Origin: Deltaproteobacteria bacterium
GTDB taxonomy: Bacteria > SAR324 > NAC60-12
DNA: 39,959 nt
NCBI GenBank assembly: GCA_002683655.1
Contig: NYTS01000048.1
Span: forward strand, 2,385 to 42,343
Reading direction: 5' to 3'
Made by a program: the position numbers and the translations under genes. Shown in pieces: positions 31,726-39,959 of this stretch; within the stretch, counting starts at the first letter, position 1, and the number at the start of each line of letters is the position of its first letter. The notes beneath the pieces were generated by a model that saw nothing but the letters and a program-made list of their open reading frames with translations, ran no database searches and had not been told where the DNA came from.

Positions 31726-33327
31726 TTGGAAAGCCACGAGTCCTTCAGTCCAGCAGAGCAACTCCAGCTTGCGCCTTACGTAACGAACACCGAACGCCCG
31801 GTGTTCGTGCTGACCAATCTTCCCGAAGTCATCAAGGGAGCACTCTTTTCCCGCTATTCTCGCTCCACACTAGGTCTCCGTACTTTACTGCTGCGAGAAT
31901 TTCTACAAAATGATGAGGCTGGATTTCAAGCTCCTTCCACTTCCCAAGATTCTCGGCTGGCACTGACCAAGGCCCAGTCCTTTTATGATCGCATTCTTGA
32001 CGGCTACGGAGATGACTCCATTGGTGAATTAGGAGGTGCTCACCTGGCACTGGAACAGGTTTCCATTTTAGCAACCAAGGTACTGGAGGACGCAAGGATT
32101 GGTGGTTCGCCATTGGAGAAATCTACCCGCTATGTCAGCTTCGCCCAGCAGGTCAATGGAGACTTCCAATTTTACAAAGACCCACGGGTGCTTGCTTCTA
32201 CTCACGCAGAACTCTATCTGGAAACAAACCGAGAGCTTTTTCGCACCTATGCTGAGCTGATTGAACCGGTTAGAGACTATCTGCGCAAGGTCTTGCCACC
32301 CGAACCTGATCAACCACAAGCTGCCTATGAACGTTCGATTCGGGCACGAGGATTTGACCTGCTGCGTGGCCTGTTACCAGCCTCAACACTGACAAACATG
32401 GGCGTCTTTGGGAATGGACGCTTCTTTGAAGGACTACTGATTCGCCTCCGCTTACAGACCTTGCAGGAACTTCAGGATCTGGCCAGTGCCGCTGAGCTGG
32501 AGCTACAGCAAGTCGTTCCCTCTTTCATTCGGCGGGCAGATCTAACCCATCGACACTTCTGCAGCCAACTGAATTTCCAGCAGCAAAGCCAGAACTTTTT
32601 CAACCGCTGGGTACCACGAACACTAGAGTCATCAACTCCCCAGAGCGCCAGCGTTGAACTGCTGAGCTACGATCCAGAAGCAGAGATCGAGGTGCTGGCA
32701 GCTCTATTCTACGAAAACAGTGCGTTGTCCTTTGCCCAAGCCAGGGAGAATGTGTGCGGGATGTCGGACCAAGCACGAGAGCACCTGTTGCGCCAATGGG
32801 CAGAATTACGCGAGCACCGACGCCACAAGCTAGGTCGTGCCCTGGAGCATGCAAGCTACACCTTCGACATCGTTGGGGATTATGGCTCCTACCGAGATCT
32901 ACACCGACATCGAATATTGACTCAGGAACGGCAGCGACTGACTACCCGACTTGGCTATACAGTCCCAAAATCATTGATTGATGCAGGACTGGAAAGTCCA
33001 GTGAGGAAGGTTCTGGAGAAAGCAGATAGTGCATTTGAAGTGTTGGAGGGAGAATTTCCACAAGAAGCACAATATGTGGTGCCGATGGCGTATCAGCTAC
33101 GCTGGTCGTTGAGGATCAACCTGCGCTCCTTGATGTGGCTGGTGGAGTTACGAACTACTCCGCAGGGGCATGAAAATTATCGTTGGTTGGCTCAACAAAT
33201 GTTCCAGCGAGTACACGAGGTTCAGCCGCGATTAGCCCAACTGATGCGCTTCGTGAATCTGGAAGATTACCCACTGGGTCGTTTGGCAGCAGAGGTGAAA
33301 CAGGAACTACGCAAGCAGTCTTCCTAG
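31726..33327 (+). CDS. Tandem ThyX-like (FAD-dependent thymidylate synthase family) protein
   Basis: 533 aa; DSIGELGGAHLALEQVSILATKVLEDARIGGSPLEKSTRYVSF in the N half and SYRDLHRHRILTQERQRLTTRLGY in the C half. Functional assignment uncertain. Confidence 0.7.
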   Translation: MESHESFSPAEQLQLAPYVTNTERPVFVLTNLPEVIKGALFSRYSRSTLGLRTLLLREFLQNDEAGFQAPSTSQDSRLALTKAQSFYDRILDGYGDDSIGELGGAHLALEQVSILATKVLEDARIGGSPLEKSTRYVSFAQQVNGDFQFYKDPRVLASTHAELYLETNRELFRTYAELIEPVRDYLRKVLPPEPDQPQAAYERSIRARGFDLLRGLLPASTLTNMGVFGNGRFFEGLLIRLRLQTLQELQDLASAAELELQQVVPSFIRRADLTHRHFCSQLNFQQQSQNFFNRWVPRTLESSTPQSASVELLSYDPEAEIEVLAALFYENSALSFAQARENVCGMSDQAREHLLRQWAELREHRRHKLGRALEHASYTFDIVGDYGSYRDLHRHRILTQERQRLTTRLGYTVPKSLIDAGLESPVRKVLEKADSAFEVLEGEFPQEAQYVVPMAYQLRWSLRINLRSLMWLVELRTTPQGHENYRWLAQQMFQRVHEVQPRLAQLMRFVNLEDYPLGRLAAEVKQELRKQSS

Positions 33328-36856: not shown

Positions 36857-37042
36857 TCAGAGGGTCTCACAGTTGCGGTGGGAACCATCACAGAACGGTT
36901 TCTTGTTGGAGAGTCCACAGCGACAGAGAGCCACTGTGCCTTCTTTTTCAATTTCGTTTCCTTCGGAATCCACCACAATGACTTTGTAGCCCTTGATCAT
37001 GTAAGGGCCCTTGGCTGACATCTGAATGCGTATTTCTTCCAT
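36857..37042 (-). CDS. CDGSH iron-sulfur domain protein
   Basis: VALCRCGLSNKKPFCDGSH matches the CxCx2(S/T)x3PxCDGxH motif. Confidence 0.92.
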   Translation of the reverse strand: MEEIRIQMSAKGPYMIKGYKVIVVDSEGNEIEKEGTVALCRCGLSNKKPFCDGSHRNCETL

Positions 37043-37204
37043 TATTCCTCTGAGGATGGGTTGTTTGTGTCCAGCGGCAACTGGATACCGCTTCTTCCAG
37101 TTTGACCAAATTGGATAAAATTCCTAGTCCAGAAATATTCTTCACGAAAATCTTGCATTCTCAAACAGAATATTGAATTGTGATCAGCCTTCGCTCAAAT
37201 CGTT

Positions 37205-37270
37205 GTTATCACGACTAAAAACGTTACTGATAACATCAGGTTGGGGAGAAGTTGGTTCTCCAATCTGATG
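37205..37270 (+). promoter_or_regulatory. Two abutting hairpins in the leader of the polyamine cluster
   Basis: HP1: GTTATCA (37205-37211) / TGATAAC (37228-37234). HP2: CATCAGGTTGGGGAGAA (37234-37250), GTTGG loop, TTCTCCAATCTGATG (37256-37270), a 15-bp stem with one G-U pair and a 2-nt GG bulge. Confidence 0.6.
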
Positions 37271-37292
37271 ATTCACCCATGCTGGAGCAGTT

Positions 37293-37577
37293 ATGGATCC
37301 CGAAAAACAGTGCCAGAGCAATGCGGAAAGGCAACGCACCTACCGGCTCAAGCTGCGAAAGAAGGGATTAGAGAGAGTGGAAATCAAACTATCGAAGGAG
37401 AGCAAGCAACTCCTCAAGAAGCTTTGTCGTGATTTTGACATGAATCGGCACCAGCTCGTTCAGCGTTTGCTGGTTCGTGCGGCGGTTGCCGAGCGCAGCG
37501 CCCCGGAGTGGCTCCGTAGTGAGAAGAAACTCCCAGCCGGCCTGCACGCCTCTGAAATACCACCACCCGCTACCTAG
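37293..37577 (+). CDS. Small basic protein, possible ribbon-helix-helix regulator
   Basis: AERQRTYRLKLRKKGLERVEIKLSKESKQLLKKLCRDFDMNRHQLVQRLLVRA: short strand followed by two helices, basic. Confidence 0.55.
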   Translation: MDPEKQCQSNAERQRTYRLKLRKKGLERVEIKLSKESKQLLKKLCRDFDMNRHQLVQRLLVRAAVAERSAPEWLRSEKKLPAGLHASEIPPPAT

Positions 37578-37631
37578 CCGTAGCGGAATGTGGAGAAAAT
37601 ATTCCGAACCCCCTGACTGAAAGGAGTTTCC

Positions 37632-38054
37632 ATGCTACTGGAACACAAGCACTTGATCGTCCGTGCCGAAATTCACCATCCCCCCTGCAACCCAAGCGCA
37701 ATGGACGACTGGATGCGCCAACTGGTTCAAGACATCCGTATGAAAGTGCTGATGGGGCCCTTCTCAGTCTACTCGGACATGCCTGGCAACCAAGGCCTGA
37801 CCAGTGTCACCATCATCGAAACCTCGCACATCGCTGTTCACGTTTGGGATGAAGTCTCCCCTGCCCTGATGCAGATGGATGTTTATTCCTGCGCTGAGTT
37901 TGATCCCCAACTGATTTTTGATCGTCTCCAGAGCGACTTTGGCCTCGCCAAGCTGGAGTGGAAATTTATCGACCGCGAGCACGGACTGGATGAGATCCCT
38001 CTCAGCCGACCCATGCCTTTCCCGATGCCCGGTCTGCTCGAAGCAGTTGCCTGA
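37632..38054 (+). CDS. Divergent SpeD-like pyruvoyl-dependent decarboxylase
   Basis: IIETSHIAVHVWDEVSPALMQMDVYSC retains the Ser-His...His...Cys core of AdoMetDC; strong RBS aaggagtttcc. Confidence 0.75.
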   Translation: MLLEHKHLIVRAEIHHPPCNPSAMDDWMRQLVQDIRMKVLMGPFSVYSDMPGNQGLTSVTIIETSHIAVHVWDEVSPALMQMDVYSCAEFDPQLIFDRLQSDFGLAKLEWKFIDREHGLDEIPLSRPMPFPMPGLLEAVA

Positions 38055-38082
38055 ACGGTTCACACTCAATAAGGAGTTTCTG

Positions 38083-38538
38083 ATGGAACAAAATCTTTCT
38101 ACCCTCAACAACTGGCCGGCCTACCATAACCCGGATGACGAGCAGGATGCTCAGGACCACTTCATTGTCCGTGACGGCGTCTCCTGCGCAGGCGCTCACC
38201 TGATTGTCGATGTCTGGGGCGCAGATCAGCTGGACGATCTGGAACTGATGGAACACGCGATACGAGAGGCAGTCGAGGCTGCCAAGGCCACCCTACTCCA
38301 CATTCACCTGCACCACTTCACTCCCAACGGTGGCATTTCCGGAGTGGCTGTGCTGGCTGAATCACACATCAACGTGCATACCTGGCCGGAGCGTCAATTT
38401 GCGGCTTTCGACATCTTCATGTGCGGTGATGCCAAACCAGAGCTGGCGGTCGAGGTGCTACGAACTCATTTTCAGCCCGGTCAATTCCAGGTGCAGGAGC
38501 TGTTGCGGGGACATACAGGGAGCTATGGAGACATTTAG
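38083..38538 (+). CDS. speD: S-adenosylmethionine decarboxylase proenzyme
   Basis: LAESHINVHTWPERQFAAFDIFMCGDAKPE canonical motif; start trimmed to ATG 38083 with RBS aaggagtttc. Confidence 0.93.
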   Translation: MEQNLSTLNNWPAYHNPDDEQDAQDHFIVRDGVSCAGAHLIVDVWGADQLDDLELMEHAIREAVEAAKATLLHIHLHHFTPNGGISGVAVLAESHINVHTWPERQFAAFDIFMCGDAKPELAVEVLRTHFQPGQFQVQELLRGHTGSYGDI

Positions 38539-39382
38539 CGAGAAGCTCTACAAGGGCTACAGCCAACACCTAGAGATCACCGAGGTGCTCTTTGAACAAC
38601 GCACAGAGCACCAGCATCTGATCATCTTTCAAAACCCCTGCTTCGGTCGAGTGATGGCTCTGGACGGTGTGGTCCAGACAACTGAGGCTGACGAATTCAT
38701 CTATCACGAGATGATGGCCCATGTGCCACTGTTGGCGCACGGTCAAGCCACGGAGGTGCTGATCATCGGAGGGGGGGATGGTGGCATGTTGCGAGAAGTG
38801 GTGCGACATCCGAACGTCAAGCGAGTAGTGCAGGTAGAAATCGACCAGGCCGTGATCGAGATGTCGGAGCGTTTCCTGCCACAGCATTCCCAGGGGGCCT
38901 TTCAGGATCCACGGGTAGAGATCGTGATTGCCGATGGCCTGCAGTTTGTCCAGGAGACCTCACTTCGTTTTGACGTGATCATCTCTGATTCCACCGATCC
39001 CGTGGGCCCAGGAGAAGCCTTGTTCACCAAGGGCTTCTATGCCAACTGCCATCGCTGCCTCAAGCCGGGAGGAATCCTGGCAACCCAGAACGGCGTCTGC
39101 TACATGCAGCTCCAGGAGGTGCGTGACACCTACCAGCGCCTGCGGCCCATCTTTGCTGATGCCACCTTCTATGGCGCAGCGGTACCGACCTATGTTGGGG
39201 GCATCATGACCTTTGCCTGGGGCAGTAACAACCCGGCATATCGTCAAGTGTCCCTGACCACGTTGGCAGAGCGCTTCCAAGCTGCAAAGCTGCAGACTCG
39301 CTACTACAATCCCGCGATTCACCAGGGAGCTTTCGCCCTGCCCCAGTACATCGTGCAGGCGCTGCAGGAGGTGGTCTCCTAG
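38525..39382 (+). CDS. speE: Spermidine synthase (polyamine aminopropyltransferase)
   Basis: METFSEKLYKGYSQHLEITEVLFEQRTEHQHLIIFQNPCFGRVMALDGVVQTTEADEFIYHEMM...VLIIGGGDGGMLREV; ATG 38525 overlaps the speD end by 14 nt. Confidence 0.96.
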   Translation: METFSEKLYKGYSQHLEITEVLFEQRTEHQHLIIFQNPCFGRVMALDGVVQTTEADEFIYHEMMAHVPLLAHGQATEVLIIGGGDGGMLREVVRHPNVKRVVQVEIDQAVIEMSERFLPQHSQGAFQDPRVEIVIADGLQFVQETSLRFDVIISDSTDPVGPGEALFTKGFYANCHRCLKPGGILATQNGVCYMQLQEVRDTYQRLRPIFADATFYGAAVPTYVGGIMTFAWGSNNPAYRQVSLTTLAERFQAAKLQTRYYNPAIHQGAFALPQYIVQALQEVVS

Positions 39383-39575
39383 CCAAGATTGCTACAAAAG
39401 TCATGGTTCTCTGCTGGGAACACCGAGGCCCAAAAGGGTGTGGGTGACTTGCACAACACCACTCGAGCCCAAGCTCACTCTAGCGCTGACCAAGAAACAA
39501 GGACGGTTCCCTTCTTGAGCTGGGCGATTTCAGTGGCACAAATCCACAAAGCTGCTAGTTTAAAAGACCTGTTGT

Positions 39576-39946
39576 GGGGGTGTCCCGGTATTCGACTGGG
39601 TGTGGAACTCACTGAGAGCAAGCCGTGGGTGATGAACGTCCACGTAAATACGGTCATCAAAATTATAGCTGCAAACAACAGCGACTACGCTCCGGCTCAC
39701 GCAGCAATAGCTGCCTGAGTAGGCGTCTCGTGGAGGTAGGCCCGAGGGCCTCCGTTGAGGTGTAACCCTTTACTTGGGCTGGTCTGGCTGGGCTTCTGAC
39801 AGTCAGATGAGATCAACTGGAAGTGTACAGACGTGAGGCGGTCGATTGCCGACACCGACTGTGAAAACGAAAAGTTTCGACTAAGCTTGTAGCGCTTCGT
39901 GGGAAAGCATTTCAGGACGCGAGTTCGACTCTCGCCACCTCCACCA
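39576..39946 (+). ncRNA. ssrA: Transfer-messenger RNA (one-piece tmRNA)
   Basis: 5' GGGGGTGTCCCGGTATTCGACTGGG pairs with 3' CACCTCC-ACCA (7 bp, one G-U); TTCGACTCTCG T-arm; tag reading frame GCA AAC AAC AGC GAC TAC GCT CCG GCT CAC GCA GCA ATA GCT GCC TGA at 39671-39718. Confidence 0.97.
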
Positions 39947-39959
39947 TTTCACAACTTTA

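Follow-up and report, generated by a model that had tools for sequence, protein, structure and literature searches.

Why would an operon that ends in a spermidine synthase gene carry two speD-like genes in front of it? The initial annotation of the window (the whole 39,959-nucleotide stretch analyzed, from a 42 kb contig of a 3.15 Mb draft genome that is 81% complete) proposed that the first SpeD paralog is a pyruvoyl-dependent ornithine or arginine decarboxylase (ODC or ADC). The general idea is already published: Li et al. 2023 reported ornithine (SpeDC) and arginine (SpeDA) decarboxylases among the SpeD homologs of many bacteria and archaea, and several of the genes are clustered with speE and a true speD, Vampirovibrio, Anaerolinea, and Atribacteria being examples (PMC10407285); phage enzymes of this kind have been assayed as well (PMC9992855). 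As both studies demonstrated such enzymes, the proposal was established in kind, and the addition of the present work concerns which decarboxylase the first paralog, SpeD1, would be: a phage-type SpeDA rather than a SpeDC.

Layout of the spe locus

The tandem SpeD-fold genes and the overlapping speE described at 37632–39382 were confirmed. All three genes lie on the + strand: speD1 (37632–38054, 140 aa), speD2 (38083–38538, 151 aa), and speE (38525–39382, 285 aa), the last two overlapping by 14 nt. The ribosome-binding sites of speD1 (37621..37630) and speD2 (38071..38080), previously described as near-identical, are the same 10-mer, AAGGAGTTTC, and the + strand of the window holds only these two copies. 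Region 36900–39950 aligns with four related assemblies at 86–95% identity. An apparent 335-bp insertion in the speD2 of one locus (L005) proved to be a run of N.

SpeD2, which carries the ESHINVHTWPE motif, matches PF02675 (E = 1.2e-35) and passes the S-adenosylmethionine decarboxylase (AdoMetDC) equivalog TIGR03330 (130.4 bits, cutoff 75.65), while SpeE passes the spermidine synthase equivalogs TIGR00417 (350 bits, cutoff 249.55) and PRK00811 (393.6 bits, cutoff 260). By these models, the two are an ordinary class 1b AdoMetDC and an ordinary spermidine synthase (polyamine aminopropyltransferase).

Several neighboring features were also recorded. Immediately 5′ of speD1, a 94-aa ORF (37293–37577) is kept in relatives (dN/dS 0.07–0.18); it has a weak ribbon-helix-helix match (RHH_9) and may encode an operon regulator. 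A gene for a 61-aa CDGSH iron-sulfur protein (36857–37042, − strand) is divergent from the spe operon, and a tmRNA gene (39576–39946) with the tag ANNSDYAPAHAAIAA lies directly 3′ of speE. Further upstream, a 533-aa protein (31726–33327) matches Thy1 (ThyX) in two stretches and is apparently a duplicated or extended ThyX.

Residues and relatives of SpeD1

SpeD1 belongs to the SpeD-fold (AdoMet_dc) superfamily, matching PF02675 (E = 1.7e-14, 54.5 bits, cutoff 25), but fails TIGR03330 (44.6 bits against the cutoff of 75.65). Its AlphaFold (AF2) model (mean pLDDT 88) finds 1vr7/1tlu, the AdoMetDC of T. maritima, as the best solved-structure matches in Foldseek (probability 1.00), which points to the same fold. 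The residues noted in the initial annotation were all recovered, with T64 before S65, then H66, H70 (+5), and C87 (+22), and the superfamily's pyruvoyl Ser, His at +5, and catalytic Cys are thus all present. The predicted pyruvoyl-forming Ser65 (codon 37824..37826) aligns with S63 of T. maritima, and the predicted processing/catalytic His70 (37839..37841) with H68; the predicted catalytic Cys87 (37890..37892) corresponds to C83 but is displaced by a two-residue insertion. The pyruvoyl Ser is present throughout the alignment, with the single exception of L006, where it is a Phe.

The displaced Cys is no accident, since it is common to the whole clade of SpeD1: 21 residues separate Ser and Cys in 36 of 36 clade proteins, a spacing absent from the other groups compared. 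Of the 15 SpeD rows, 12 have 19 residues there and the other three, which are SpeD-SpeE fusions, have 24; 35 of the 37 SpeDC rows also have 19, so that the insertion is, among these groups, confined to the SpeD1 clade. SpeD1 also lacks the marks of a bona fide AdoMetDC. Thr64 replaces the Glu before the Ser, and Asp73 replaces the conserved Pro of HTWPE, as Asp does in all 36 clade members; this Pro is fully conserved in true AdoMetDCs and lost in SpeDAs (PMC10407285).

The hallmark of SpeDC is a set of four residues, Gln, Thr, Phe, and Tyr (PMC10407285), whose columns we placed by inference from the residue order stated in that paper and from the conservation in our alignment. The Gln was initially placed at Ser−2 (the IQTS of L148), and a larger alignment moved it to Ser−5. 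At the four columns (S−5, S−1, S+6, and the position aligned with Q81), SpeDC proteins read Q/T/F/Y, whereas SpeD1 has T60, T64, V71, and Q81, the Thr being its sole match. The rest of its clade reads mostly T/T/V or S/Q, with Q at S−5 in three pelagiphages. With one of four diagnostic residues, SpeD1 is not, on sequence grounds, a canonical SpeDC.

A superfamily tree, the check suggested in the initial annotation, was built from 90 sequences including SpeD, SpeDC, pelagiphage, and IMG/VR phage proteins. SpeD1 grouped with 26 IMG/VR phage proteins (support 96/97), and together with the pelagiphage proteins, including HTVC201P AXH71538, these formed a clade (99/95), the position expected of a SpeDA. 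It fell outside the 35-row SpeDC clade (100/99) and apart from all SpeD (100/86), with the SpeDC and phage-type clades as neighbors (97/78).

The HTVC201P enzyme decarboxylates arginine but not ornithine or lysine (PMC9992855). SpeD1 shares with it the core ETSHIA-H-WDE-PA-Q-DVY-C and the insertion before the catalytic Cys; however, the phage gene adjoins a ribonucleotide reductase gene, outside any speD-speE operon, and the two proteins are only 42% identical (40–50% for pelagiphage homologs in general), with this assayed relative lying outside SpeD1's own sub-branch, which tempers an arginine reading. Outside the genus, the nearest known sequences are the IMG/VR phage homologs (L050–L129; ≤64% identity), whose genes lie next to phage genes for replication, recombination, nucleotide reductase, or structural proteins, on contigs that, where examined, show T4-like hallmarks (DNA polymerase, UvsX, DnaB-like helicase, ribonucleotide reductase, and baseplate lysozyme). 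We found no published assay of these homologs in the literature. When genome contigs were scanned with long peptide patterns, SpeD1-type matches were found only in the same genus.

A separate set of phage proteins, with the pattern Q..TS....HF...Y, was found with a SpeDC query from a relative of the same class (L148). The best matches of the SpeDC-type query were Sinorhizobium phages, while the SpeD1-type query L051 retrieved pelagiphage-type records only. The ORFs of the SpeDC-type phage set are mostly 117–126 aa, which fits the assayed phage ODCs (117–122 aa), whereas most of the SpeD1-type IMG/VR ORFs are 126–134 aa. In published work, the ODCs of several freshwater phages form a clade separate from HTVC201P, a clade that also holds a Sinorhizobium phage AdoMetDC (PMC9992855).

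Other variants of the fold were encountered. Two IMG/VR phage homologs (L249 and L250; TTSHIAFHSWNTGE--IQLDVFSC) diverge basally in the SpeD1/pelagiphage clade and take an intermediate position with respect to SpeDC and phage SpeDA. A different family of this class has SpeD and SpeE fused in one ORF of 432–465 aa (L148/L151 in G043, L140/L150 in G042, L147/L152 in G041, and L149 in G045), with a canonical SpeDC gene 3′ of the fusion in G042 and G043. Two divergent homologs (L156 in G032 and L157 in G031) carry the motif LTST-I--HT---YVNIFSC, with the Thr and Tyr of SpeDC but without its Gln or Phe, and are possibly a further substrate variant; both genomes also encode a canonical SpeD elsewhere.

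Agmatine enzymes and constraint on the cassette

We then analyzed the distribution of polyamine genes in six genomes of the genus. The gene for AguB was found above the TIGR03381 equivalog cutoff in all six, including the window's own genome (G000:C57:236-1072), and aguA (PF04371) in four; the best NCBIfam matches of the AguA proteins are agmatine deiminase models, below their strict cutoffs (TIGR03380, 314–325 against 381.8). None of the six genomes yielded an agmatinase, an AAT-fold PLP ODC/ADC (OKR_DC_1, PF01276), a PvlArgDC (PF01862), or a SpeA-type (PLP) arginine decarboxylase. The sole PLP AR-fold (PF02784) protein of the genus, one in each of five genomes, is the diaminopimelate decarboxylase LysA; one copy was tested and passed TIGR01048. 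Neither aguA nor lysA was found in the genome of the window itself (81% complete), which we read as incompleteness. The searches are able to detect the missing enzymes, as other family members carry an agmatinase and some carry 638–659-aa PF02784 proteins of SpeA size. At the genus level, there is hence an agmatine-to-putrescine route and no detected PLP ADC, the gene content expected around a SpeDA. As agmatine-using enzymes are present, no other agmatine producer was found, and SpeD1 is of the phage ADC type, SpeD1 is the candidate arginine decarboxylase. The earlier suggestion that the pathway uses only SpeD-fold decarboxylases was likewise upheld.

Compared with three close species, SpeD1 of the window has a dN/dS of 0.05–0.11, similar to that of neighboring genes. 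A different picture was obtained with UBA9254 (L006/G004), where dN/dS is 0.39 for SpeD1, 0.10 for SpeD2, and 0.065 for SpeE, and where nonsynonymous and synonymous differences number 34/22 for SpeD1 against 18/39 for SpeD2 (Fisher p = 0.0025; p = 7.8e-6 against SpeE). The UBA9254 ortholog (L006:4001-4420), which adjoins constrained speD2 and speE genes, is the one whose pyruvoyl Ser has become Phe (TCG to TTT); a single read error is unlikely because the change needs two substitutions. By these substitution patterns, SpeD1 is functional in four species and is being lost in a fifth. As SpeD2 and SpeE stay constrained there, speD1 is not indispensable. One genome of the genus (G003, 99% complete) lacks speD1, speD2, and speE while keeping aguA and aguB, so that the whole cassette is dispensable within the genus and aguAB can exist without SpeD1. 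No SpeD of any type was found in the other family genomes searched.

Function and origin of SpeD1

From the layout, family, residues, clade, selection, and gene content observed, we infer processing, substrate, and flux as follows: with a probability of about 0.74, SpeD1 processes itself and is a pyruvoyl-dependent L-arginine decarboxylase of the phage SpeDA type that would start the AguA/AguB route to spermidine. Ser65 would cleave the SpeD1 chain to form the pyruvoyl group, assisted by His70 and Cys87, and the enzyme would convert arginine to agmatine. The agmatine deiminase AguA would then produce N-carbamoylputrescine and the N-carbamoylputrescine amidohydrolase AguB putrescine, both being encoded elsewhere in the genomes of the genus, and SpeE would join putrescine with the decarboxylated SAM supplied by SpeD2. 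The initial proposal of a substrate-switched decarboxylase feeding SpeD/SpeE is therefore well supported and its choice between ornithine and arginine turns toward arginine, but its direct diamine supply does not stand: if the substrate is arginine, SpeE would be fed only through AguA and AguB.

It is unlikely that SpeD1 is a pyruvoyl ODC whose putrescine goes straight to SpeE, or an enzyme for both ornithine and arginine. An ODC is encoded in several of the published speD-speD-speE clusters (PMC10407285), the phage enzyme UCP01 acts on both arginine and ornithine (PMC9992855), the SpeDC clade is the neighbor of that of SpeD1 and shares Thr64, and no PLP ODC was found in the genus. However, SpeD1 lies outside the SpeDC clade and lacks three of its four diagnostic residues, the assayed member of its clade uses arginine only, and the genus keeps aguA and aguB, which would be superfluous to a direct ODC. 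That SpeD1 is a second AdoMetDC is the least probable reading: it has the Pfam family, the fold, and the best structural match for it, but also the failed TIGR03330, the lost Glu and invariant Pro, a canonical SpeD next door, and assayed clade relatives without AdoMetDC activity (PMC9992855).

SpeD1 is also quite improbable as a non-catalytic SpeD2 partner, comparable to the trypanosome prozyme, or as a decaying duplicate. The Phe and raised dN/dS of UBA9254 would fit such a role, yet strong purifying selection has kept Ser, His, and Cys in the window and in the three close species, and the UBA9254 copy is decaying rather than conserved in a dead form. Moreover, pelagiphages encode the SpeD1-type protein next to genes for replication or nucleotide metabolism, and the stretches shown contain no speE, so that such a protein works without SpeD2. 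Two findings that the initial annotation named as speaking against its proposal were not made: the genus yielded no PLP ODC/ADC, and SpeD1 is not placed among dead partners.

Published bacterial clusters come close to the locus. The speD1-speD2-speE-speB cluster of Vampirovibrio chlorellavorus likewise combines a true SpeD, a SpeD-derived ADC, and SpeE (PMC10407285), but its SpeDA stems, by the published tree, from another emergence of SpeDA and is paired with the agmatinase SpeB, whereas AguA and AguB are the candidates here. The SpeDC genes of Anaerolinea thermophila and Ca. Atribacteria share the operon with speD and speE and the Thr before the pyruvoyl Ser; unlike SpeD1 (Thr/Val/Gln), they encode Gln/Phe/Tyr and lack the insertion.

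In both trees, SpeD1 is nested inside phage sequences, with cellular sampling limited to this genus. An AU test did not reject the monophyly of the phage sequences alone (p = 0.165), and a phage-to-bacterium transfer is therefore not claimed. We only tentatively consider that a bacterial lineage took the ADC gene of a pelagiphage or T4-like phage into a chromosomal speD-speE operon, supplying the absent initial step of spermidine synthesis. Among the characterized enzymes in the 2023 tree, phages were the sole representatives of the HTVC201P-type ADC, and unknown bacterial hosts were argued to be the source of the gene; if our scenario is true, the gene flow would be opposite to this published expectation of capture from bacteria.

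In the SpeD1 locus, an enzyme type already known, with phage members as the only ones assayed to date, would thus have a further, bacterial home; the locus would not be a new kind of system. SpeD1 is a tractable protein of 140 aa for which assays are published, and the intact and decayed orthologs of sister species provide a natural comparison. The chromosomal copy beside speD and speE, in a genus with agmatine enzymes, gives this phage gene a cellular context.
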